The notes beneath the pieces are model-generated. The model saw nothing but the letters and a program-made list of their open reading frames with translations. It ran no database searches and was not told the origin of the DNA. From Candidatus Rokuibacteriota bacterium (GTDB taxonomy: Bacteria > Methylomirabilota > Methylomirabilia > Rokubacteriales > CSP1-6): a stretch of 63,379 nt of DNA. The translations under genes and the position numbers were made by a program. Positions 1 to 13,630 of this stretch are shown here, piece by piece; position 1 is the stretch's first letter; every line of letters begins with the position of its first letter. The stretch spans positions 1-63,379 of the forward strand of contig QHRU01000058.1 of assembly GCA_003220225.1 (NCBI GenBank), written 5' to 3'.

Positions 1-1254
1 ATCGACGTCCTCCGCCGTCGCGTTGTAGACGATGTTCTTCACGGGATCGCGCAGGGGCGTCATGCCCCACGACGACGCCTTCCACAGGACGAGATCGGCG
101 GTGGCGCCGGCGGCGATGCGGCCGAGGTCGTCGCGGCCCAGCGCGCGGGCGCCGCCGAGCGTGGCGGCGTCGAACACGTCGGCGGCGGTCGTGGCCGCCG
201 TGTTGCGCTCGACGATCTTGCTGCCGATGGCGGCCCAGCGCATGGCCTCGATGACGGACTGCGGATTGGTGTCGGTGCCGAGCGCGACGTTGATGCCGGC
301 CTTGCGGTAGAGCGCGAAGGACTCCATGAGCATACCGCGCCGCATGAAGACCCACGGCGCGTGGGCGACGGAGCAGCCGGTCTCGGCCATGATGGCGACG
401 TCGCCCGACGGGTAGTTGGTCCACGACGAGCCGCCGACGATGATGGCGTGGCCGAGGATGGTGTTCTCGCCGAGCACGCCGAGATCGTCGAGCCAGGCGA
501 TCGGCGACATCCCGTGGCGCTGGAGCATCTCGTTGAACTCGACGACCGACTGCGAGGCGTGCACGGTATACGGGCGCCCGGCGTCGTCGGCGCGGTCCTT
601 GGCCTCGCGCAGCAGCTCGGGCGTGCACGTGTCGACTTGCATCGGCGAGAACGCGCAGCGCACGAGGCCTCCGTGGGCTCCGTCGTGCTTCTCGAAGAAC
701 TCCACGGCGCGCCTCAGCCCCTGCCGCCCGGCCTCCTCGTCCCACTCCCACACGACCCGCCGCCCGTCGCGCGTGAGCCAGCGCCCCGAGCGGAACCCCA
801 GGCCCATGTACACCCGCAGCCCGTAGTGCGCGGCGCGCTCGACGACGTAGGCGCCCAGGCCGCCGATCTCCAGGCACGTGGTGACGCCGCCCCGCAGCAG
901 CTCGGCCATGGAGAAATCGACGCAGGCGCGCCCGGCCTCCTCGTCTTGCGCCTCGCCGCGGACGGGCAGCATCTCGAACAGCCCCGAGTACCAGAACTGC
1001 GGGCTGCCGCGGTCCTCGATGAACGAGCGATCGAGGGGCGAGCCGGCGATGTGCGCGTGGGTGGTGATGAGTCCCGGGGTCAGCACGCGGTCGCGCGCGT
1101 CCAGCGTCTCGTCGACCTGCCCCTCGCCGCCGCGGCCGACGTGAACGATGCGGGCGCCCTCCACGACGACCACGCCATCGCGCAGCAGGCGGTGACCGCC
1201 GCCGTCGAAGGCGATGATCCAGCCCGCTCTGATCGCGACGCGCCGGGTCGTCAC
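1..1254 (-). CDS. Amidohydrolase of the ATZ/TRZ-type family (3' end outside window)
   Basis: Metal-dependent hydrolase of the amidohydrolase superfamily (chlorohydrolase/guanine deaminase-like branch), which acts on C-N or C-Cl bonds of heterocycles and amides. The 418 visible codons include the metal motif THAHIAG (H66, H68), a VHASQ histidine, a GHAII histidine and the late catalytic Asp in LGTDTNP, so the barrel is intact up to the window edge. The start is a GTG at 1254 that overlaps the stop of the upstream KAS III gene in a GTGA, implying co-transcription. The C-terminus runs past base 1. The substrate cannot be told from sequence; the abundance of nitrogen-scavenging genes downstream makes a nitrogenous substrate attractive but unproven. 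Confidence 0.85.
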   Translation of the reverse strand, partial: MTTRRVAIRAGWIIAFDGGGHRLLRDGVVVVEGARIVHVGRGGEGQVDETLDARDRVLTPGLITTHAHIAGSPLDRSFIEDRGSPQFWYSGLFEMLPVRGEAQDEEAGRACVDFSMAELLRGGVTTCLEIGGLGAYVVERAAHYGLRVYMGLGFRSGRWLTRDGRRVVWEWDEEAGRQGLRRAVEFFEKHDGAHGGLVRCAFSPMQVDTCTPELLREAKDRADDAGRPYTVHASQSVVEFNEMLQRHGMSPIAWLDDLGVLGENTILGHAIIVGGSSWTNYPSGDVAIMAETGCSVAHAPWVFMRRGMLMESFALYRKAGINVALGTDTNPQSVIEAMRWAAIGSKIVERNTAATTAADVFDAATLGGARALGRDDLGRIAAGATADLVLWKASSWGMTPLRDPVKNIVYNATAEDVD

Positions 1255-3110
1255 TTCGCAACGATCGCCGGGTCGAGGCGCATCACGACGTAGCCGCCGA
1301 CGGCGCCCGCGCCGAAGCCCGGCGCGAAGAGCCGCATGGGCCGGTCGATCTTGCCGTCCTGCACGGCGTCGTAAATGGCCAACGGAATCGACGCCGACGA
1401 CGTGTTGCCGACGCGCTCGATGTTGAAATAGAGCTGCTCGGGCGCCAGGCCCGCCGCCTTGGCGTAATGAACGACCATCGTCTTGTTCGCCTGGTGCGGC
1501 ACGATGAGGTCGATGGCCTGGAGCAGGCTGCGCCCGCCGCCGTCGGGACTCGGCAAGGCGTCCAGCTCGCGGATCATCTGCGTGAGATAGCGCTTCACGA
1601 GCGCCTTCACCTCGGGCCCGTAGACGGTGATGTTGTTGTCGAAGTCCGGGTTCGGCCAGACGATCGAGTCCACCTCGCTCATGGGCCCGCTGGCGTAGGT
1701 CTGGTAGTACTCGATGTCGGGCGCGGCGCCGGCGGGGGCGGGGCCGACCACGACGGCGGCGGCGCCGTCGCCGAAGATCATGCGCGAGGTGCGCACGGTG
1801 CCGATCTTGTCGGAGAACTTCTCGCCGCACACGACGAGCACCGGCCGCTCGACCTCCTGGAGCAGGCGCACCGCCTCCGAGAGCCCGTAGGGCAGCCCCG
1901 CGCAGGCGGCCACGATGTCGCACGATGCGTGGGTCTGGAACATGCCGAGCCGGCCCGACAGCCAGGTGGCGAGGGACGGCATCATCTTCGCGCTCGTGCA
2001 CGAGCAGAAGAGCACGGCGCCGATCTCCTCGGGCTTGCGGCGAGCCTTGTCGAGCGCGCCCTGGGCGGCGAGCAGCGCGATGTGGTCGAGGTCGAGATCG
2101 GTGTAGAGCCGCTGGCGAATGCCCGTCTTCTCCTCGATCTCGTCGGCCGTCATCGGCGACCAGGAGTAGGCCGCGTTACGAATGAGGTCGTCGTTGGTGC
2201 ACGGCCGCTCGCCCTGGTACACGGCCAGCGACTCCAGCCGCGGCATCACGCGGAACTGCCGGCGCACGTCGACGGGCGGGTAGGGCGTCGTGGGCTGCCG
2301 CGAGGCGAGGGCGGGCGGCTTGGGCGGCCGGCTGCGCTGGCCGCGCTTGACGCGGCGGATGAAGTCGCGCACCTCGTCGCTGCGCGGATGGTAGACGACC
2401 ACGAAGTCGTCGTCGGCCAGCTTGCCCACCTCGACCACGCGCATGCGGTCGCGGTTCCAGCGGAACTGGTTGTGGAGCACCATCATCTGGCGCAGCAGCG
2501 CCTCGAGCTCCGGCACCGCGTGGCTGCACTCGATGATGTCGTCGTGGCCGTAGCCCGGGAAGTCGGGGTTGTGCACCGACAGGTGATAGGTCAGGTTGCG
2601 CGGGCTCGTGAGGATCTCGGCGACGGTCGGCTTGATCGGTTCCAGTTCCGCGCCGGCGCCCGCCTTGTGCCGGAACACGTCGATGAGCACGCGGAAGATC
2701 TTGTCCTCGGTGCCCTCGTCCCACGTCGGCTTGAGTGCGCGATACCCACGCTCGATGGCTGCGGTGAGCTCGCCGCTCTCCCACGGCTTGAAGATCGGCA
2801 GGAAGATGTCGTCGCGCATGCGCGGCACGTCGCGCCAGCGCGTCGGGCGCTTCTCGTACATCGTCAGCGCGTAGCGGTTGACCCAGAAGAGGTCCAGCGC
2901 GAGATCGCGCAGCAGGTCGTACCGGCCGCGGTACGCGCCCGACTCCAGGCGCGTGACGATGTCGGTCTCCGTCGGCGCCTTCTCCTCGAAGTCGCGTCGG
3001 ATCACCGCCGCGAACTGATCGAGCGTCTCGAAGACGGAGAAGTCGAGGTTCGGGAAAAAGTTGGAGGGGAAGACCATCCGACCGTAGCGATTGATCACGA
3101 AAGGCTTCAT
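1251..3110 (-). CDS. Long 3-oxoacyl-ACP synthase III-like protein with a ~290-residue N-terminal domain
   Basis: A 619-residue protein whose last ~325 residues are a FabH/KAS III thiolase fold: the N-lobe motif PCTNDDLIRNA near residue 303, catalytic Cys403 in VAACAGLPYG, His in VPHQANKT and Asn in GNTSSASIP. It should condense an acyl-CoA or acyl-ACP with a second acyl unit. Ordinary FabH is about 320 residues. Here an alpha/beta region of ~290 residues, rich in Trp and Arg and with no motif I recognise, precedes it, joined by a Pro/Arg-rich linker (residues ~253-290). The ATG at 3110 has a GAGGAG Shine-Dalgarno. The promoter is shared with the divergent selenoprotein-like gene. Confidence 0.85.
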   Translation of the reverse strand: MKPFVINRYGRMVFPSNFFPNLDFSVFETLDQFAAVIRRDFEEKAPTETDIVTRLESGAYRGRYDLLRDLALDLFWVNRYALTMYEKRPTRWRDVPRMRDDIFLPIFKPWESGELTAAIERGYRALKPTWDEGTEDKIFRVLIDVFRHKAGAGAELEPIKPTVAEILTSPRNLTYHLSVHNPDFPGYGHDDIIECSHAVPELEALLRQMMVLHNQFRWNRDRMRVVEVGKLADDDFVVVYHPRSDEVRDFIRRVKRGQRSRPPKPPALASRQPTTPYPPVDVRRQFRVMPRLESLAVYQGERPCTNDDLIRNAAYSWSPMTADEIEEKTGIRQRLYTDLDLDHIALLAAQGALDKARRKPEEIGAVLFCSCTSAKMMPSLATWLSGRLGMFQTHASCDIVAACAGLPYGLSEAVRLLQEVERPVLVVCGEKFSDKIGTVRTSRMIFGDGAAAVVVGPAPAGAAPDIEYYQTYASGPMSEVDSIVWPNPDFDNNITVYGPEVKALVKRYLTQMIRELDALPSPDGGGRSLLQAIDLIVPHQANKTMVVHYAKAAGLAPEQLYFNIERVGNTSSASIPLAIYDAVQDGKIDRPMRLFAPGFGAGAVGGYVVMRLDPAIVAK

Positions 3111-3146: not shown

Positions 3147-3809
3147 ATGGCCATTCTCCAGTCCCGCGACGAAGACGCCGTCCGCAAGGAGTTCCAGCGC
3201 ATCGCCGGGCCCGTCAAGCTGGTGGTGTTTTCGCAAGAGCTGGTGGCGGGCGACCTCTGCCGCCAGAACGAGCAGCTCATCAAGGAAGTCGCCGCGCTCT
3301 CGGACCAGATCAGCGTCGAGGTGCTCAACCCGGCGATCGACAAGGAGCGCGCGCAGGCCTATGGCATCGAGGAGGTGCCGGCCACCGTCGTGGAGGGCGC
3401 GCGCGACTACGGCGTGCGCTTTCTCGGCATCCCGGCGGGCTACGAGTTCAGCAACCTGATCGACTCGATCATCGCCGTCTCCAGCGGCGAGGCCGCGCTG
3501 ACCGACGACACGAAGGCGTCGCTGGCCGCGCTCGCCGGCGACGTCGACATCAAGGTCTTCTCGACCCCCACCTGACCGCACTGTCCCCGGGCCGTGCGCC
3601 TGGCACAGCACATGGCGATCGCGTCCGACCGCGTGACGGCGACCGCGATCGACGCGACCGAGTTTCCGGAGCTCGCGCGCGCCTATCAGGTGAGCGGCGT
3701 GCCGAAGATCGTGATCAACGACCGCGTCGAGCTGCTCGGCGCCTACCCGGAGCCGCAGTTCCTCGAGGCGGTGCTGCGCGGCGCCACCGACCCTGCCGGC
3801 GACCAGTAA
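3147..3809 (+). CDS. Two-domain thioredoxin-fold protein with in-frame UGA at the active site (probable selenoprotein)
   Basis: Read through the TGA at 3573-3575, this is a 220-residue protein of the glutaredoxin-like protein disulfide oxidoreductase (PDO) type: two thioredoxin-fold halves of ~110 residues. The TGA falls at residue 143 in FSTPT-U-PHC, exactly where the family has the first Cys of its C-terminal CxxC, and the frame continues without a shift into a canonical thioredoxin ending (GVPKIVIND). A 10-bp hairpin follows (see SECIS entry). In the N-terminal half the first motif is degenerate (GDLC, only Cys38), so redox activity would rest on U143/C146. The start ATG sits 5 nt after TATAAT, so the transcript is probably leaderless. 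The alternative is a TGC-to-TGA mutation or sequencing error. No selenium machinery is in the window. Confidence 0.75.
3581..3608 (+). promoter_or_regulatory. Candidate bacterial SECIS hairpin
   Basis: Directly after the in-frame TGA, CTGT (3581-3584) pairs with ACAG (3605-3608). After a C-C mismatch, CC (3586-3587) pairs with GG (3602-3603). After a bulged C, GGGC (3589-3592) pairs with GCCT (3598-3601). The apical loop is CGTGC (3593-3597). The loop begins 17 nt after the TGA and has G at its second position followed by U, within the published limits for bacterial SECIS elements (loop 16-37 nt from UGA, a G among the first two loop bases). Confidence 0.6.
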
Positions 3810-4155: not shown

Positions 4156-5538
4156 ATGGCAGCCACTGCCGCCGAGATCATCAAGGCCGACCAGGAGCAC
4201 CTGATCCACCCGCTGCACCATCCGATCGATCACGCCGAGCCGATGATCTATGTGCGCGGCAAGGGCGCGACGATCGAGACGCTGGGCGGGGAGCGCTACA
4301 TCGACGGGCTCGCCGGCCTCTGGAACGTCAACGTCGGCCACGGCCGCGCCGAGCTGGCCGAGGCGGCGGCCGCGCAGATGAAGGATATGGCCTACTTCTC
4401 CGCGTACGCCGGCTCGTCCAACCTGCCGGCCGTGCAGCTCGCCGAGAAGCTCGTGGGGCTCGCCTACGACAACATGCAGGCCGTCTTCTTCACGTGCGGC
4501 GGCGCCGAGTCCAACGAGTCGGCGTTCAAGACCGCGCGCTTCTACTGGAAGGCCAGGGGCAAGCCCGACAAGTTCAAGGTCATCGCGCGCCAGAACGCCT
4601 ACCACGGCGTGACCCAGCAGGCGATGAGCGCGACGGGCATGGCCGCCTACTGGAAGATGTTCGAGCCGCGCGTGCCCGGCTTCGTGCACATCCCGACCTG
4701 CTATCCGTACCGTCAACAAGATTCCAAGCCCGGCGAGACGGCGGGGCAGACGGCGGCGCGCCTGCTCGACGAGGCGATCTCGCGCGAGGGGCAGGAGACG
4801 GTGGCCGCCTTCATCGCCGAGCCGATCCATGGCGGCGGCGGCGTCCTCTATCCCGACGACGACTACTTCCGGCTCGTGCGCGAGGTGTGCACGAAGCGCG
4901 AGGTGCTCTTCATCTCCGACGAGGTGATCACGGGCTTCTGCCGCACCGGGCGCTGGTTCGCGCTCTCGCACTGGAACGTCAAGCCCGACATCATGTCGTT
5001 CGCCAAGGGCGTGACCTCCGGCTACCTGCCGCTGGGCGGCATCATGGTGAGCCGCGAGATCAAGGACACGATGGACTCGGTCAAGCCCGAGGATCGCTGG
5101 ATGCACGCGTACACCTACTCCGGCCACCCGACGTGCTGCGCGGTGGGGCTGAAGAACATCGAGATCATGGAGCGCGAGCGGCTCTGGGAGAAGGCGGCCG
5201 GGATGGGCACGCGGCTGTTCACGGGGCTGCAGCAGGCGTTCAAGGACCATCCCAACGCCGGCGACATCCGCGGCGGTAAGGGGCTGCTCGCCGCCGTCGA
5301 GCTGGTGGAGGACAAGGCCTCCAAGCGCAGCTTCGCCGCCGACAAGAAGATCGGGCCGCGCATCCAGCAGGAGATGACCAAGCGCGGCGTCATCACCCGC
5401 GTGCGGCCCACGAGCGGGGCGCACCCGGCGACGGCCGACATCATCATGTTCGCCCCGGCGCTGGTGATCACGGAGGCCGAGGTCGATCGCCTCGTGTCGG
5501 TCACGCGCGACGCGGTGAAGTCAGTGCTGGGCGTCTGA
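4156..5538 (+). CDS. Class III (omega) aminotransferase
   Basis: A 460-residue PLP-dependent aminotransferase of fold type I, class III. The PLP lysine is K284 in SFAKGVTSGY, preceded by the SDEVITGFCRTGRW motif with the PLP-nitrogen Asp. The phosphate-binding region is FFTCGGAESNESAFK. Family members move an amino group between omega-amines or beta-amino acids and pyruvate or 2-oxoglutarate. Its ATG touches the stop of the cyclotransferase gene and is preceded by GGAGG at about 4146, so the two are co-transcribed. Paired with a GGCT-like enzyme, a polyamine or gamma-amino-acid role is possible, but the sequence does not fix the substrate. Confidence 0.9.
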   Translation: MAATAAEIIKADQEHLIHPLHHPIDHAEPMIYVRGKGATIETLGGERYIDGLAGLWNVNVGHGRAELAEAAAAQMKDMAYFSAYAGSSNLPAVQLAEKLVGLAYDNMQAVFFTCGGAESNESAFKTARFYWKARGKPDKFKVIARQNAYHGVTQQAMSATGMAAYWKMFEPRVPGFVHIPTCYPYRQQDSKPGETAGQTAARLLDEAISREGQETVAAFIAEPIHGGGGVLYPDDDYFRLVREVCTKREVLFISDEVITGFCRTGRWFALSHWNVKPDIMSFAKGVTSGYLPLGGIMVSREIKDTMDSVKPEDRWMHAYTYSGHPTCCAVGLKNIEIMERERLWEKAAGMGTRLFTGLQQAFKDHPNAGDIRGGKGLLAAVELVEDKASKRSFAADKKIGPRIQQEMTKRGVITRVRPTSGAHPATADIIMFAPALVITEAEVDRLVSVTRDAVKSVLGV

Positions 5539-6236: not shown

Positions 6237-6262
6237 CCGGCGAGCGGACGGACGCGCTCGCG

Positions 6263-6278
6263 TGGCATGCCCGCTGCA
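6263..6278 (+). promoter_or_regulatory. Sigma-54 (-24/-12) promoter of the nitrate assimilation operon
   Basis: TGGCATGCCCGCTGCA contains GG (6264-6265) and GC (6276-6277) exactly 10 nt apart, close to the RpoN consensus TGGCAC-N5-TTGCA. The start site would be about 6289, leaving a ~117-nt leader. The same layout occurs before the other two nitrogen operons of the window. Confidence 0.65.
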
Positions 6279-6354
6279 TTCCTCCCCCTCCGAGTTCGCG
6301 CCGACGACGGCGCGGATGGACGCTCACGGCGCCGTTGCCGCGTTCGCAGGCACG

Positions 6355-6372
6355 GCGCCATTTTTTTGGCGC
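6355..6372 (+). promoter_or_regulatory. Leader stem-loop before the nitrate operon
   Basis: GCGCCA (6355-6360) and TGGCGC (6367-6372) flank a six-T loop, 33 nt before the GTG. A second palindrome, ACGGCGCCGT, is at 6326-6335. Both lie in the predicted leader. They could serve leader-mediated control, as in nas operons under NasR, but no terminator U-tract follows the hairpin. Confidence 0.3.
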
Positions 6373-6405
6373 GCGTCATCGAGGAGCGCCAAGAAGGGGG
6401 AATGC

Positions 6406-7641
6406 GTGACTCGTCGCGACTTCGTGAAGACCACCGCCGCGGCCGCGCTGCTGGCCGGCGTGCCGCTCGGCTGGCGCGGAACGGCGTACGCGTCGGACGC
6501 GCCGGAGACGCCGAAGGTCCGCATCGGCATCATCGCGCTCACCGACTGTTCGTCGATCGTGATGGCCCACGAGCTGGGCCTGTTCAAGAAGCAGGGCATC
6601 GAATCGACGATCTCGAAGGAGGCGTCGTGGGCGGTCATCCGCGACCGCCTCACGCTCGGTGAGAACCAGGCGACCCACTTGCTGCTCGGCATCCCGTACG
6701 CGGCGACCATGGGGCTCCAGGGCTCGCCCGTGAAACCGATGATCATCCCCATGTACCTCAACCGGAACGGGCAGGCGATCACGCTCACCAAGGCGCTGCT
6801 CGACAAGGGCGTCAAGACACCGCAGCAGCTCAAGCCGCTGGCGCTGGAGGCGAAGGCCAAGGGCAGCCCGATGACGTTCGCGATGACGTACCCGCCGGGC
6901 ACGCACGCGATGTGGACGCGCTACTGGCTCGCCGCCGGCGGCATCAATCCCGACCGCGACGTCTCGCTCATCACGATTCCGCCCGCCCAGATGGTCGCCA
7001 ACATGAAGGTCGGCAAGATGGACGGCTACTGCGTCGGCGAGCCGTGGGGCGCGCGCGCCATCGCCGACGGCATCGGCTTCACGGCGATCACCACGCAGCA
7101 GATCTGGAAGGATCACCCCGAGAAGGTGCTCGGGTTCACCGAGGAGTTCGCGACGAAAAACCCCAAGACGGTCAAGGCGGTGATGCGCGCGATCCTCGAG
7201 GCGAGCCAGTGGAACGACAAGCTCGAGAACCGTCCGAAGATGGCGGAGGTCGTCGGCCAGCCGCAGTACGTCAACGCCGCGAAGGAGGTCATCCTCGGCC
7301 GCATGCTCGGCGAGTACGACTACGGCGACGGGCGCAGGGAGAAGGACAAGTACTACATGACCTTCTTCGACCGTCAGACGAACTTCCCGATGAAGTCGCA
7401 CGGCACGTGGTGGCTCACACAGTTCCGGCGCTGGGGAATGGTGAAGGAGCCGCCGGACTACAAGGGCCTCGTCGACCGCGTGCACCGGCCCGACATCTAT
7501 CGCGAGGCGGCCAAAGAGATGGGCATCGAGACCCCGCGCGGCGACTCGCAGAAGGAGACGTTCTTCGACGGCGGCGTCTTCGACCCGGCGGACCCGGAGA
7601 AGTACGTCAAGAGCTTCGCCGTCCACACCATGGGGGCGTGA
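6406..7641 (+). CDS. nrtA: NitT/TauT-type ABC transporter substrate-binding protein (nitrate)
   Basis: A 411-residue periplasmic binding protein of the NrtA/CmpA family. A GTG at 6406, preceded by AAGGGGG, gives an N-terminus with the twin-arginine motif TRRDFVK and an Ala-rich h-region (residues 2-25), indicating Tat export. The body has the family hallmarks SWAVIRDRL and GEPWGARAI. Longer N-terminal extensions to 6262 are open but would bury the signal and run over the sigma-54 promoter. It heads an operon of permease, two ATPases, nitrate and nitrite reductases and siroheme genes, so nitrate (possibly nitrite) is the likely ligand. Confidence 0.88.
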   Translation: MTRRDFVKTTAAAALLAGVPLGWRGTAYASDAPETPKVRIGIIALTDCSSIVMAHELGLFKKQGIESTISKEASWAVIRDRLTLGENQATHLLLGIPYAATMGLQGSPVKPMIIPMYLNRNGQAITLTKALLDKGVKTPQQLKPLALEAKAKGSPMTFAMTYPPGTHAMWTRYWLAAGGINPDRDVSLITIPPAQMVANMKVGKMDGYCVGEPWGARAIADGIGFTAITTQQIWKDHPEKVLGFTEEFATKNPKTVKAVMRAILEASQWNDKLENRPKMAEVVGQPQYVNAAKEVILGRMLGEYDYGDGRREKDKYYMTFFDRQTNFPMKSHGTWWLTQFRRWGMVKEPPDYKGLVDRVHRPDIYREAAKEMGIETPRGDSQKETFFDGGVFDPADPEKYVKSFAVHTMGA

Positions 7642-8411
7642 TGAGTCCCTCGCGCGTGTCGCGCTTCGTGCTGCCGTTGCTCGGGCTGGGCCTCGTGCTG
7701 ATGGTGTGGACGGCCCTCAGCCAGACCGTGGCCACGGACCTGCCGTCGCCCGCGAGGACGTGGACCGAGTCGCGCCGCTACGTGCTGGAGCCGTTCTTCA
7801 AAGACGGCGAGATGAACCAGGGGATCGGGCGCCTGGCCTTCTATTCGCTCGTGCGCGTGGGCAAAGGCTACCTGCTCGCGCTCCTGATCGGCACGCCGAT
7901 CGGCTTCATGCTCGGGCTCTCGCGGAAGTTCTACGAGACGTTCGACCCGATCATCCAGTTCCTGCGCCCGATCTCACCGCTGGCGTGGCTGCCGCTCGGG
8001 CTCGTGATCTTTCGCCAGTCCGAGCCCGCCGCCGTCTTCACGATCGCCCTCTGCGCGATGTGGCCGACCGTCATCAACACCGCGGTCGGCGTGCGCTCGA
8101 TCAGCCCGGACTACCTCAACGTCGGCCGCGTGCTGAAGCTCTCGCGCTTCCGCATGCTGAGCAAGATCATCGTGCCGGCGTCGCTGCCGTACGTGTTCAC
8201 CGGCTACCGGCTCTCGCTCGGCCTCGCGTGGCTCGTGATCGTCGCCTCCGAGATGCTGACCGGCACGCCGGGCGTCGGCGGCTTCCTGTGGCAGGAGTAC
8301 AACAGCCTCGTCTACTCGCACATCATCCTGAGCGTCATCACGATCGGCGCCATCGGCTTCCTGCTCGACCGCCTGATGGGGCTGCTCGAGGCGCGGCTGA
8401 AGGCGGTCTGA
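7641..8411 (+). CDS. nrtB: Nitrate ABC transporter permease
   Basis: A 256-residue inner-membrane permease of the BPD_transp_1 fold. It has an N-terminal helix (VLPLLGLGLVLMVWTAL), about five further helices, and the EAA-type coupling loop around residues 150-175 (SPDYLNVGRVLKLSRF). The sequence RPISPLAWLPLGL is typical of NrtB/SsuC permeases. Its ATG overlaps the stop of the binding-protein gene (TGATG) and its stop overlaps the ATG of the ATPase. Confidence 0.9.
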   Translation: MSPSRVSRFVLPLLGLGLVLMVWTALSQTVATDLPSPARTWTESRRYVLEPFFKDGEMNQGIGRLAFYSLVRVGKGYLLALLIGTPIGFMLGLSRKFYETFDPIIQFLRPISPLAWLPLGLVIFRQSEPAAVFTIALCAMWPTVINTAVGVRSISPDYLNVGRVLKLSRFRMLSKIIVPASLPYVFTGYRLSLGLAWLVIVASEMLTGTPGVGGFLWQEYNSLVYSHIILSVITIGAIGFLLDRLMGLLEARLKAV

Positions 8412-9190
8412 TGGCGTACCTCGACGTGCGCGCGGTCGAGAAGTCGTTCGTCACGCCGCGCGGGGTGACGCGCGTGCTGGGCGGCGCAAGCCTGTCGCTC
8501 GACGAGGGCGAGTTCGTCGCCATCGTCGGCTACTCGGGCTCGGGCAAGACCACGCTGATCTCGCTCATCGCCGGCCTGCTCGCCGCGGACGCCGGCGAGA
8601 TCGTGCTCGACGGCGCGCCGGTGACGGAGCCGGGCCCCGAGCGCGGCATCGTGTTCCAGCACTACTCGCTGCTGCCGTGGATGACCGTGTCCCAGAACGT
8701 CGCCCTGGCGGTGGACGCTGTGGACGGAGCCTCGCCCGCCGCGGAACGCCGGCGGCGCACCGACGAGCTCGTGGCGCTGGTCGGCCTGGCCGCCGCCGCC
8801 GGCAAGCGCCCGCGCGAGCTGTCGGGCGGCATGCGCCAGCGCGTGGCCGTCGCGCGCGGCCTGGCCATGCGGCCGAAGATCCTCTTGATGGACGAGCCGT
8901 TCAGCGCGCTCGACGCGCTCACTCGCGCGCGGCTCCAGGACGAGCTGCTCGCCATCTGGAACGAGCGGCGCACGACTGTCGTGCTCGTCACCAACGACGT
9001 CGACGAGGCGATCCTGCTCGCCGATCGCATCTACCCGATGACGCCGGGGCCCGGCGCCGTGCTCGGCCCGCCGATCGAGGTCGGCCTGCCGCGCCCGCGC
9101 GAGCGCCGGCACATGAGCCTGGCGCCGGCCTATCAGAAGGTGCGCCAGGGCATTGTCGAATTCCTGCGCGCGTGCCGGCGGGTGGCCTGA
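8411..9190 (+). CDS. nrtC: Nitrate ABC transporter ATP-binding protein 1
   Basis: A 259-residue ATPase with Walker A GYSGSGKTT, signature LSGGMRQRV and Walker B ILLMDEPFSALDA. The H-loop reads VTNDVDEA, with Asn in place of the usual His, whereas the partner ATPase below keeps VTHDVDEA. The pair may therefore have one weakened nucleotide site. There is no fused binding-protein domain as in cyanobacterial NrtC. The start overlaps the permease stop; 66 nt separate it from the second ATPase. Confidence 0.88.
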   Translation: MAYLDVRAVEKSFVTPRGVTRVLGGASLSLDEGEFVAIVGYSGSGKTTLISLIAGLLAADAGEIVLDGAPVTEPGPERGIVFQHYSLLPWMTVSQNVALAVDAVDGASPAAERRRRTDELVALVGLAAAAGKRPRELSGGMRQRVAVARGLAMRPKILLMDEPFSALDALTRARLQDELLAIWNERRTTVVLVTNDVDEAILLADRIYPMTPGPGAVLGPPIEVGLPRPRERRHMSLAPAYQKVRQGIVEFLRACRRVA

Positions 9191-9256
9191 CGTGCGGCCC
9201 TTTGTAGCGACGGCGCCAGCTCGGCTCGAGCCGCAGGTGGCCTGGTCGAGGCGGCC

Positions 9257-10027
9257 GTGAGGGCGTTCGTCGAAATCGCTGCGCTCGGCAAGACGTACGC
9301 GACGCCGGCCGGCCCGGCGGAGATCGTGCGCGACTTCAGCCTCTACGTCGACGAGGGCGAGTTCGTCTGCCTGCTCGGCCACTCGGGCTGCGGCAAGTCC
9401 ACGGTGCTCTCCATCCTCATGGGGCTGAACCAGGCGACCACGGGCGGTGTCGTGATCGGCGGCCGCGAGATCGACGGCCCGGGCACCGATCGCGGCGTCG
9501 TCTTCCAGTCGGCCACGCTGCTGCCGTGGATGTCGGTGCGCGCCAACGTGCGGCTGGCCGTCGACCAGGTGCGCCGTGCCCCCGGCGCCGGCGACGCCGA
9601 GGCCTACCTCGAGGCGGTGGGCCTCGACGGCCTCGGCGATCGCCTGCCGCGCGAATTGTCCGCCGGCATGCAGCAGCGTGTGGGCATCGCGCGGGCGTTC
9701 TCGCTGGAGCCGCGCCTGCTGCTGCTCGACGAGCCCTTCTCGCTGCTCGACGCGCTCACGCGCATGGATTGTCAAGATTTGCTGATGGCGCTCTGGGAGC
9801 GCACGCGGCGCACGGTCCTCATGGTCACGCACGACGTGGACGAGGCCTTGCTGCTCGCCGACCGCATCGTGCTGATGACGAGCGGACCGGCGGCGACGAT
9901 CGGCGAGATTCTCCGGGTGAAGTTCCCGCGCCCCCGCGTGCGCGAGGAGATCCTGTCGCGGCCGGATTATTTCTGGCTGCGCGACCAGGTGCTCGGCTTT
10001 CTCGAGGCGCAGCCCGTCCATGCCTGA
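9257..10027 (+). CDS. nrtD: Nitrate ABC transporter ATP-binding protein 2
   Basis: A 256-residue NrtD-like ATPase. Walker A is GHSGCGKST, the signature is LSAGMQQRV (Ala replacing the usual Gly), Walker B is LLLLDEPFSLLDA and the H-loop VTHDVDEA is intact. The GTG start at 9257 is supported by the first beta strand (FVEIAALGKTY). Its last 8 nt overlap the nitrate reductase gene, which couples transport to reduction. Two different ATPases per transporter suggests a heterodimer, as in NrtCD. Confidence 0.88.
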   Translation: MRAFVEIAALGKTYATPAGPAEIVRDFSLYVDEGEFVCLLGHSGCGKSTVLSILMGLNQATTGGVVIGGREIDGPGTDRGVVFQSATLLPWMSVRANVRLAVDQVRRAPGAGDAEAYLEAVGLDGLGDRLPRELSAGMQQRVGIARAFSLEPRLLLLDEPFSLLDALTRMDCQDLLMALWERTRRTVLMVTHDVDEALLLADRIVLMTSGPAATIGEILRVKFPRPRVREEILSRPDYFWLRDQVLGFLEAQPVHA

Positions 10028-12125
10028 GACGGCGACGCTGTGCCCGTACTGCGGTGTCGGCTGCGGCCTGCTCGTGGAGGTGCGCGAGGGCCGGGTCGCG
10101 CGCGTGCGCGGCGACCCCGCGCACCCGTCCAGCCTCGGCGATCTCTGCGCCAAGGCGGTCCACCTGCCGCCGACGCTGCGGACCGACGACCGGCTGCTGT
10201 ACCCGCACCTGCGCACGCGCCGCGACGCCGCGCTGTCGCGCGTGCCGTGGGACCTGGCGATTCGCACCGTGGCCGACCGCCTCGGCGAGATCGTCGCCGC
10301 TCACGGGCCGAAGGCGATCGCGTTCTACGCGTCCGGTCAGCTCACCACCGAGGAGTACTACGTCGCCGGAAAGCTGGCGAAAGGTTTCTTGAGGTCGAAC
10401 AACTTCGACACCAACTCGCGCCTGTGCATGGCCTCGGCCGCCGTCGGCTACACGCGGACGTTTGGCGCCGACGGCCCGCCGTGCTCCTACGAGGACGTCG
10501 ACGCCGCCGACGTCTTCTTGTTGATCGGCACCAACACCGCCGACTGCCACCCCGTGCTCTTCAAGCGCCTGCGCCGCCGCAAGGCCGCCGCGCCGGACGA
10601 CGTCGGCGTCATCGTCGCCGATCCCCGCTGGACCGAAACCGCGGACCTCGCGGACCTGCACCTGGCGCTGCGCCCCGGCTCGGACGTCGCCCTGCTCAAC
10701 GGGATGCTGCATGTGCTCGCACGCGAGGGCCTGCTCGATCGTGACTTCATCACCGCGCACACGACGGGCTGGGGCGCCGTCGAGCGCGAGATCGCCGCCT
10801 ACCCGCCGGAGCGGGCGGCCATCCTCACGGGGCTCTCGGCGGAGGCGATCGTCGCCGCCGCGCTCGCCTTCGGCCGCGCGCGCCGCGCGCTGACGCTCTG
10901 GAGCATGGGCGTCAACCAGAGCCGCATCGGCACCGACAAGACGGCGGCGATCCTCAACCTGCACCTGGCCACGGGGCAGATAGGGCGAGCGGGCGCCGGA
11001 CCGTTCTCGCTGACCGGCCAGCCGAACGCGATGGGCGGCCGCGAGACGGGCGGGCTCGCACATCTGCTGCCCGGCTATCGCTCGATCGGCGACGCCGCCG
11101 CGCGCGCGGTGGTCGAACGGCACTGGGGAGTGGAGCCGGGGACGATCCAGCCCGAGCCCGGGCGCGCGGCCCTCGAGATCTTCGAGGGCCTGACCACCGG
11201 CGAGGTGCGCGCGGTGTGGATCCTCTGCACGAACCCGGCGGCGTCGCTGCCCGACACCGATCTCGTCGAGCGCGCGCTGCGCCAGGCGGACCTCGTGATC
11301 GTGCAGGACGCGTATCACCCGACGGAGACGACGCGGTTCGCCGACGTGCTGCTGCCGGCCGCCCAGTGGCCCGAGAAGGACGGCGTCATGACGAGCTCCG
11401 AGCGCCGGCTGACGTACCTGCCGAGGCTCGTCCCACCGCCGGGCGAGGCGCTGCCCGACGCCGAGATCGTCACGCGCGTCGCGGCCGCGATGGGCTTCAA
11501 GGCCTGGTTCGCGTACGAGAGCGCGGCGGAGATCTTCGACGAGTTCGCGGCGCTGACGGCCGGGCGGCCCTGCGACTACTCGGGGTTGAGCCACGCGCGG
11601 CTGCGCGCGCGCCCCGTGCAGTGGCCGGCGCCCACGCCCGAGCATCCCGGCACCGCCCGGCTCTACGGCGACGGCGTCTTTCCGACGGCCGACGGCCGCG
11701 CGCGCTTCGTGCCCGTCGCCCACGCCGAGCCCGCCGAGCTCCCCGACCGCGCGTTTCCGCTGACCCTCACGACGGGCCGCGTGCGCGATCACTGGCACAC
11801 GCTGACGCGCACCGGGCAAGCCCCCGCGCTGCGCGCGCGCACGCCCGAGCCGATCGTCGAGGTCAACGTGGCCGACGCGCAGCGCGCGGGGATCCAGGAC
11901 GGGGACTTCGTGGAGGTCGCCTCGCGCCGCGGCAAGCTGATCGCCCAGTGCCGCGTGACCTCGGCCATCCGCGAAGGCGTCTGCTTCGCGCCGTTCCACT
12001 GGGGGCGCGGCCTCGGCTTCTACAAGAGCGCCAACAACCTCACGCTGAGCGCGCGCGATCCGCTGTCGCGTCAGCCGGAGCTCAAGGCATGCGCGGTGCG
12101 CTTGCGCCGCGTGGAGTCACCATGA
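10020..12125 (+). CDS. nasA: Assimilatory nitrate reductase catalytic subunit (NarB/NasA type)
   Basis: A 701-residue cytoplasmic molybdopterin oxidoreductase that reduces nitrate to nitrite. The N-terminal [4Fe-4S] motif is C8-x2-C11-x3-C15-x27-C43 (CPYCGVGC ... LCAKA). The Mo ligand is C136 in NSRLCMASA. The C-terminal molydop-binding domain begins near residue 580 (LTTGRVRDHWHT). The length matches ferredoxin- or flavodoxin-dependent NarB; there is no C-terminal extra [2Fe-2S] domain and no FAD partner nearby. It overlaps the gene before it by 8 nt and the next by 4 nt. Confidence 0.92.
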   Translation: MPETATLCPYCGVGCGLLVEVREGRVARVRGDPAHPSSLGDLCAKAVHLPPTLRTDDRLLYPHLRTRRDAALSRVPWDLAIRTVADRLGEIVAAHGPKAIAFYASGQLTTEEYYVAGKLAKGFLRSNNFDTNSRLCMASAAVGYTRTFGADGPPCSYEDVDAADVFLLIGTNTADCHPVLFKRLRRRKAAAPDDVGVIVADPRWTETADLADLHLALRPGSDVALLNGMLHVLAREGLLDRDFITAHTTGWGAVEREIAAYPPERAAILTGLSAEAIVAAALAFGRARRALTLWSMGVNQSRIGTDKTAAILNLHLATGQIGRAGAGPFSLTGQPNAMGGRETGGLAHLLPGYRSIGDAAARAVVERHWGVEPGTIQPEPGRAALEIFEGLTTGEVRAVWILCTNPAASLPDTDLVERALRQADLVIVQDAYHPTETTRFADVLLPAAQWPEKDGVMTSSERRLTYLPRLVPPPGEALPDAEIVTRVAAAMGFKAWFAYESAAEIFDEFAALTAGRPCDYSGLSHARLRARPVQWPAPTPEHPGTARLYGDGVFPTADGRARFVPVAHAEPAELPDRAFPLTLTTGRVRDHWHTLTRTGQAPALRARTPEPIVEVNVADAQRAGIQDGDFVEVASRRGKLIAQCRVTSAIREGVCFAPFHWGRGLGFYKSANNLTLSARDPLSRQPELKACAVRLRRVESP

Positions 12126-13630
12126 ACCGCATCGAGGCGATGAAGGCGGAGAAGGACGGCCTCGACGTGCAGGAGGACCTCGCCCGTTTCGCGCGCGAGG
12201 GCTGGAAGACGCTCGGCGACGACGACAAGGAGCGGCTCAAGTGGGTGGGCGTCTTCCATCGCCGGCCCACGCCGGGGCATTTCATGATGCGCGTGCGCAT
12301 GCCCAACGGCATCGTGAGCGCGGCGCAGGCGCGGCTGCTCGGCGAGATCACCCGGGAGGCGGGCCGCGCGTCGGGCCGCCCGATCGCCGACGTCACCACG
12401 CGCCAGCAGATCCAGCTGCGCTGGGTGACGCTCGAGAACGTGCCGGAGGTCATCGCACGGCTGGAAGCGGCGGGCCTCTCGAGCCTCCAGACGGGGATGG
12501 ACAACATCCGCGGCATCATCGGCTGCCCGGCCACGGGGCTGACACCGGGTGAGCTGCTCGACACCGCGCCGATCGCCACCGCCTTCCAGAAGATCTTCCT
12601 CGGCAACAAGGAGTTCACGAACCTGCCGCGCAAGTTCAACGTCACCATCACCGGCTGCCTGGAGCACTGCACGGGCGGCGAGACGCAGGACATCTCGCTC
12701 ACGCCGGCGGTGACGGGTCACGAGCCCGGCTTCAACCTCGCCGTCGGCGGCAAGCAGGGCTCGGGCGGGCCCGTCTTCGCCACGCCGCTCGACGCGTTCG
12801 TGCGACCGGACGAGGCGGCGGACGTGTGCGCAGCGATCGCGCTGGTCTTCCGCGACCACGGCCCGCGCGAGTCGCGCAGCAAGGCGCGCCTGGCGTTCCT
12901 GCTGGAGGTCTGGGGCGCCGCCCGCATGCGCGCGGAGCTGGAAAAGCGCCTGGGCCGCTCGCTGCCGCCCGCCGGCGCCGACGCGCGGCTGGCGACGCAC
13001 ACCGATCACGTCGGCGTCTTTCGTCAGAAGCAGGCCGGACTGAACTACGTCGGGCTCAAGACGCCGGTCGGGCGGCTGACGGGCGAGCAGCTTCTCGAGC
13101 TGGCGCGGCTGGCCGAGCAGTACGGCCGCGGCGAGCTGCGCTTCACGCCGCTGCAGAACGTGCTGCTGCCGCACGTGCCCGACGCCCGACTGGGCGACCT
13201 CACCCAGGAGCCGCTGCTGAGGGCGCTGCCCTACAACCCCTCCGAGGTCGCGCGCGGCCTCGTCGCGTGCACGGGCACCGACTTCTGCAACCTCGCGCTC
13301 ATCGACACCAAGACGCGCGCCCTGGCGCTCGCGAAGGAGTTCGAGGCACGCTTCGGCTCCACGCGGCCGATCGCCGTGCGCTGGTCGGGCTGCCCGGCGG
13401 GATGCGGCAATCACCACACGGCGGACATCGGGCTGCAGGGCTGCAAGGTGAAGGTCAACGGCAAGATCGTGGATGGCGTGCACGTCTTCGTCGGCGGCCG
13501 CGGCGGCGCCGACGCGCGCGCGGGTTTGCGCATCCTCGAGGATCTGCCGTGCGACCAGCTGCCGGAGGTGCTCGAGCGGCTCGTGCGCTTCTTCCCGCGC
13601 GCCGAGCGCAAGCCGGAGGCCGAGCCATGA
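12122..13630 (+). CDS. nirA: Ferredoxin-dependent nitrite reductase (siroheme)
   Basis: A 502-residue siroheme-[4Fe-4S] reductase that takes nitrite to ammonia with six electrons. The cluster and siroheme ligands are C383-x5-C389 (ACTGTDFC) and C424-x3-C428 (SGCPAGCGNH). Two ferrodoxin-like half-domains precede each lobe. The motif TTRQQIQLRW fits the siroheme-binding arginines. It follows the nitrate reductase with an ATGA overlap and precedes siroheme-synthesis genes, which favours nitrite over sulfite as substrate. Confidence 0.92.
   Translation: MNRIEAMKAEKDGLDVQEDLARFAREGWKTLGDDDKERLKWVGVFHRRPTPGHFMMRVRMPNGIVSAAQARLLGEITREAGRASGRPIADVTTRQQIQLRWVTLENVPEVIARLEAAGLSSLQTGMDNIRGIIGCPATGLTPGELLDTAPIATAFQKIFLGNKEFTNLPRKFNVTITGCLEHCTGGETQDISLTPAVTGHEPGFNLAVGGKQGSGGPVFATPLDAFVRPDEAADVCAAIALVFRDHGPRESRSKARLAFLLEVWGAARMRAELEKRLGRSLPPAGADARLATHTDHVGVFRQKQAGLNYVGLKTPVGRLTGEQLLELARLAEQYGRGELRFTPLQNVLLPHVPDARLGDLTQEPLLRALPYNPSEVARGLVACTGTDFCNLALIDTKTRALALAKEFEARFGSTRPIAVRWSGCPAGCGNHHTADIGLQGCKVKVNGKIVDGVHVFVGGRGGADARAGLRILEDLPCDQLPEVLERLVRFFPRAERKPEAEP

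Follow-up and report, generated by a model that had tools for sequence, protein, structure and literature searches.

The window (the whole stretch of 63,379 nucleotides that was analyzed) carries on its forward strand, at positions 3147-3809, a gene of the protein disulfide oxidoreductase (PDO) type. Its reading frame contains a single TGA at positions 3573-3575 (codon 143), is otherwise open up to the TAA stop codon (3807-3809), and yields a product of 220 amino acids when TGA is translated as selenocysteine (Sec, U). A first-pass annotation of this DNA had placed the sole internal stop at the first cysteine of a C-terminal CxxC motif, with coordinates that proved right: the TGA is directly followed by P-H-C146, such that U143 would be the first residue of a UPHC motif and Cys146 (3582-3584, forward strand; invariant in 49 aligned sequences) its putative resolving cysteine. 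The protein matched the NCBIfam model TIGR02187.2 (PDO_seleno_TRX) over residues 6-210 with 255.6 bits (curated cut-off, 185 bits), placing it within this family; it also matched Pfam Glutaredoxin, and the protein disulfide oxidoreductases of Pyrococcus and Aquifex were its closest solved sequences. An AlphaFold2 model built from 61 aligned sequences (pLDDT 96.8) contained two tandem thioredoxin folds, and Foldseek matched it to 2ayt, 2ywm and 1a8l, as well as to 1j08, with TM-scores of about 0.9. The 3147-3809 product is a PDO of two domains.

Codon 143 was compared among homologues from related genomes, a check that the first-pass annotation had proposed. Among 52 Methylomirabilota homologues, the window's included, 51 carried TGA, one (in genome G050) carried AGA and none carried a cysteine codon, and the codon for C146 was always TGC or TGT. 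Nearly every homologue in the 99 relatives searched had exactly one in-frame TGA. At the aligned Sec position Cys was found in 39 homologues and TGA in 170, placing the in-frame UGA at the position of a cysteine, and residues encoded beyond the TGA (C146, P147, A149, V150, V185, P186 and G198) were invariant even in far relatives. PDOs from records named Candidatus Rokuibacteriota fell into the same clade of the protein tree as the window PDO. The window comes from a soil bacterium of the Rokubacteria (Methylomirabilota).

Some individual records were notable in their own right. The AGA codon belongs to the PDO of L055 (G050:C122), where it replaces TGA at the Sec codon (codon 142 of that protein) and where the hairpin described below is retained. 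Genome G050 (78% complete) gave no tRNA-Sec over the cut-off and a weak selB match, and its sisters G020 and G037 have both; loss of Sec with replacement by Arg is possible, as are gaps or an error in the assembly. In the PDO of L067 (G087:C278:10000-13500) an in-frame internal deletion joins IPA to AVRLAH and the UPYCP site is gone; the frame remains open, the N-terminal domain retains CEFC, and the deletion is either real or an assembly join. The PDO of L133 (MGTY01000078.1, 'Elusimicrobia bacterium GWA2_69_24') lies within the Rokubacteria clade, which probably reflects a wrong label or faulty binning of this record, or else transfer of the gene.

To cover more distant lineages, one genome per species (genome_contigs) was scanned with the pattern P-T-TGA-P-[HY]-C-P-x-A-V, which returned at least 115 matches from about 11 phyla; those listed included 32 from Chloroflexota, 30 from Acidobacteriota, 24 from Bacillota, 10 from Actinomycetota and 8 from Rokuibacteriota, among others. 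Eighty of the matches were compared by BLASTP and all matched the window protein (E <= 1e-31); the remaining 35 of the matches listed were read in the same manner. With the TIGR02187 model, applied to 388 genomes, about 39 outside the phylum exceeded the cut-off with Cys forms, and 10 had a form with one TGA. No viral relative of the PDO was found, either by protein or by the Sec-specific pattern.

Downstream of the TGA the transcript is predicted to fold into a bacterial SECIS (bSECIS) hairpin (3581-3608, forward strand), composed of a lower stem of four pairs, CUGU/ACAG (3581-3584/3605-3608), a 2/1 internal loop, and an upper stem of six pairs, one of them G.U (3587-3592/3598-3603), that closes the apical loop CGUGC (3593-3597), the upper part reading CCGGGC(CGUGC)GCCUGG. 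The 10-bp hairpin of the first-pass annotation is therefore real with respect to its ten pairs, but these are not continuous, being split into six and four by the internal loop. RNA folding bore out that the apical loop begins 17 nt past the UGA, with G then U at its second and third positions. Published constraints for bSECIS elements, as given in PMC13188914, comprise a loop of 3-9 nt, a stem of 4-16 bp, a spacing of 16-37 nt, a G within the first two loop nucleotides and a minimum free energy of -7.5 kcal/mol or lower. The window hairpin agrees with all of these (a 5-nt loop with G at position 2, a 6-bp stem and a 17-nt spacing; -9.6 kcal/mol for the upper stem-loop and -12.3 kcal/mol in full). 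Compared with dinucleotide shuffles, the hairpin stretch was not unusually stable (z = +0.76). Thermodynamic stability alone was thus abandoned as evidence for a SECIS, and tests based on position, codon freezing and Cys controls were used instead.

Among about 570 offsets, +17 gave the greatest mean stem length across homologues, reaching 6.0 bp in Rokubacteria-type genes and, over a background of 2.0 (s.d. 0.43), 5.66 bp in 80 genome_contigs genes. Stems of 5 bp or more at this offset were present in 51/51 Rokubacteria-type genes and in 84% of 115 other TGA forms among the matches listed. Of the 38 Cys homologues, which provide the strongest control, 8% had such a stem, and shuffling the synonymous codons of the TGA genes produced one in 12-13% of cases. 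The stem sequences vary and their arms stay complementary (CCGGGC/GCCTGG, GCGAGC/GCTCGC, AGCCGC/GCGGCT, CCGTGC/GCACGG). Synonymous sites of codons 147-152 were nearly frozen in 49 aligned sequences: CCC in 46/49, CGG in 47/47 of the Arg codons at 148, GCC in 46/49, GTG in 47/49, CGC in 48/49 and, at 152, CTG in 49/49. Third positions of P144, C146 and A153 varied freely, and those of the lower stem were likewise variable among homologues. When both strands of the window were scanned for TGAs flanked by coding-type composition, the one at 3573-3575 was the single case with a stem of at least 6 bp and a loop at +17; no other candidate Sec codon of this kind was found in the window. This hairpin is thus both conserved and consistent with the bacterial SECIS model.

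The machinery for Sec insertion was located in the same genome. Genes for tRNA-Sec (C5:19682-19775, 69.7 bits), selA (C5:17007-18359, 585 bits) and selB (C5:15074-16951, 372 bits) sit together on the same strand of contig C5; selD is found on contig C159 (335 bits). All four genes whose absence was to count against the first reading are present. The selD gene (G000:C159:12780-13730) is itself interrupted by a single in-frame TGA, in keeping with a SelD that contains Sec.

Taken together, TGA conservation, the conserved SECIS-type hairpin and the Sec machinery support the selenoprotein reading of the first-pass annotation, and on this sequence evidence it is very likely that the PDO gene encodes a selenoprotein with Sec at UGA 143. 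Were the TGA a true stop, the product would be a 142-residue N-terminal domain and the remainder a decaying remnant of a pseudogene; standard translation does end at the TGA, but the sequence beyond it is conserved in far relatives, with C146 and other residues invariant, the short product would lack a redox motif, and the TGA is seen again in about 11 phyla, leaving this reading highly improbable. A sequencing or assembly error that turned TGC or TGT into TGA would require a difference of one base; however, the TGA is common to 51 homologues and Cys occurs in none of them, and the SECIS hairpin tracks TGA rather than Cys, so that the chance of such an error is close to negligible. An in-frame UGA is by itself no proof of Sec, and it could be read through by another route, such as reassignment to Trp or near-cognate suppression. 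Most homologues of the PDO gene, however, use TGA as a real stop, which argues against global UGA reassignment, and the codon occupies the position of the catalytic Cys in Cys homologues, with a SECIS next to it and the full Sec machinery in the genome; readthrough of this kind is very unlikely. We infer that Sec is inserted at this codon in the cell.

The C-terminal UPHC motif appears to be the only dithiol-type site of the protein. Canonical PDOs have CxxC in both domains, whereas the N-terminal motif of the window PDO reads AGDLC, in which the first Cys is missing and CxxC is reduced to Cys38 (GDLC, residues 35-38; 3249-3260, forward strand). This loss had been noted in the first-pass annotation, which also held the Sec site to be the sole active centre, and the motif agrees on both points; in Rokubacteria, where the N-terminal motif is AGDLC, GSETC or GPETN, the sequences support U143-C146 as the one dithiol-type site left. 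A related PDO of the same class (G068/L064) has CPTC in the N-terminal domain together with UPYC. The N-terminal CxxC was retained in 35/39 Cys forms and 76/170 Sec forms, proportions that are not unbiased because the Sec set was gathered with a TGA-specific pattern. On the tree, CxxC appears to have been lost in at least five lineages of Sec forms, among them Rokubacteria, two Acidobacteriota groups, Sulfobacillus-type Bacillota and Thermoleophilia, and in two Cys lineages; with too few independent pairs on the tree, no significant link between Sec and N-terminal CxxC loss was established. A tentative idea, which we regard as possible but doubtful, is that once Sec occupies the C-terminal site the N-terminal CxxC becomes more dispensable, and that Sec-only, single-site PDOs arose repeatedly by trading isomerase activity for fast reductase activity. 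Recurrent loss of the second site would offer a handle on the advantage that selenium confers on an oxidoreductase with two sites.

The surroundings of the gene are partly conserved. Immediately downstream and co-directional lies a gamma-glutamyl cyclotransferase/AIG2-like gene (PF06094; 3802-4155, forward strand; Pfam, 80 bits), whose start is approximate and may overlap the PDO stop, followed by a class-III aminotransferase gene (4156-5538, forward strand; Pfam, 302.6 bits) as the next member of the cluster. Linkage of the PDO to the AIG2-like gene was conserved in 26/27 contexts, and the context formed with the aminotransferase is conserved inside Rokubacteria. The divergent upstream gene (1251-3109, reverse strand), named from its sequence as 3-oxoacyl-ACP-synthase-III-like, keeps its linkage to the PDO in part of Rokubacteria. 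A DCC1-like thiol-disulfide oxidoreductase gene (PF04134; 5735-6121), near the PDO cluster in many Rokubacteria, is possibly a second thiol-redox gene of this neighbourhood, and positions 6262-13630 hold what was judged from sequence to be a nitrate assimilation-like block (ABC transport, molybdopterin oxidoreductase, sirohaem-type reductase). Gene context had been considered as a clue to the substrate and was set aside, since no PDO neighbour was shared in the four other genomes read; it is therefore uninformative for function.

With respect to mechanism, Sec-tRNA-Sec and SelB, docked on the hairpin past codon 143, would decode UGA 3573-3575 as selenocysteine. The U143 selenolate would then attack a disulfide substrate, C146 would resolve the selenyl-sulfide, and NADPH-thioredoxin reductase would re-reduce the oxidised PDO; peroxiredoxins or other oxidised proteins are likely targets, and the N-terminal thioredoxin fold, devoid of CxxC, would probably serve as a scaffold or docking surface. 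The same genome encodes a thioredoxin reductase (393 bits). As neither thioredoxin reductase nor peroxiredoxin was identified among the conserved PDO neighbours, reductant and substrate are proposed from distant PDOs. In Sulfolobus, according to PMC7465337, electrons pass from NADPH-thioredoxin reductase through the PDO to peroxiredoxins, and the same direction of flow may apply here. That review and PMC7278568 further describe the thiol transferase activity of Sulfolobus PDO as strictly dependent on its C-terminal site, and its isomerase activity as requiring both. By these site roles, a single-site Sec PDO is best read as a reductase or transferase, and with its N-terminal CxxC lost the Rokubacteria form would not be expected to act as an isomerase. 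On this analogy, a relay from NADPH-thioredoxin reductase through the PDO to its substrate, free of isomerase activity, is somewhat favoured.

The protein could also be a selenoprotein of another type, namely a glutaredoxin that depends on GSH or a peroxiredoxin reductase domain like that of AhpF. The Pfam Glutaredoxin match, the adjoining gamma-glutamyl cyclotransferase-like gene and the AhpF N-terminal domain, which has the same tandem thioredoxin fold (TM 0.80-0.87), are consistent with this. However, the solved PDOs are structurally closer than the AhpF domains, and a Pyrococcus horikoshii homologue is described in PMC7278568 as having Trx activity and no Grx activity. We therefore consider such an assignment unlikely, and prefer the thioredoxin reductase-dependent PDO. 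Unlike AhpF, the window PDO has no attached flavoprotein domain, and with the AhpF model it reaches 73 of 503 bits, far below the cut-off.

The first-pass annotation took the Sec form of PDO/glutaredoxin-like proteins to be rare and knew of none like it, a view that has to be given up: the family is named in NCBIfam, tabulated in papers and widespread, and the at least 115 TGA matches show the Sec form to be common. Sec-type PDOs are tabulated in PMC13188914, PMC9312934 and PMC1794560, the last including those of Carboxydothermus hydrogenoformans and Symbiobacterium thermophilum, and are reported as CHY_0740 in PMC1914089 and from Asgard archaea in PMC11227280; a 2026 review mentions a MAG from Methylomirabilota that carries 63 genes for selenoproteins. 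The excerpts of the literature on Sec-type PDOs yielded no discussion of a one-site form. For annotation, the consequence is that standard translation truncates the PDO selenoprotein at residue 142.

Compared with the Cys-type PDOs of thermophiles (Pyrococcus 1a8l/1j08, Aquifex 2ayt/2ywm, Aeropyrum 2hls), the window PDO shares two fused thioredoxin folds, with 29-39% identity in structural alignment and a TM-score of about 0.9. The described thermophile proteins carry CxxC in both domains, whereas the window PDO would have UxxC in one and has neither motif in the other. The same 2020 review (PMC7465337) calls PDOs exclusive to thermophiles, but in environmental genomes the family of the window PDO is common across many phyla, and Sec-type PDOs are thus widespread in environmental bacteria. 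With the known Sec PDOs (Carboxydothermus, Symbiobacterium, CHY_0740, Asgard) the window PDO has in common the NCBIfam family, UxxC and, as predicted here, TGA decoding; the Rokubacteria forms lack the N-terminal CxxC that many other Sec forms retain, a comparison made over sequences other than that of Carboxydothermus. The window PDO is a clean, testable candidate selenoprotein that opens no new kind of system: Sec-type PDOs are of a kind already known, and the modest new point is the loss of the N-terminal site in Rokubacteria.
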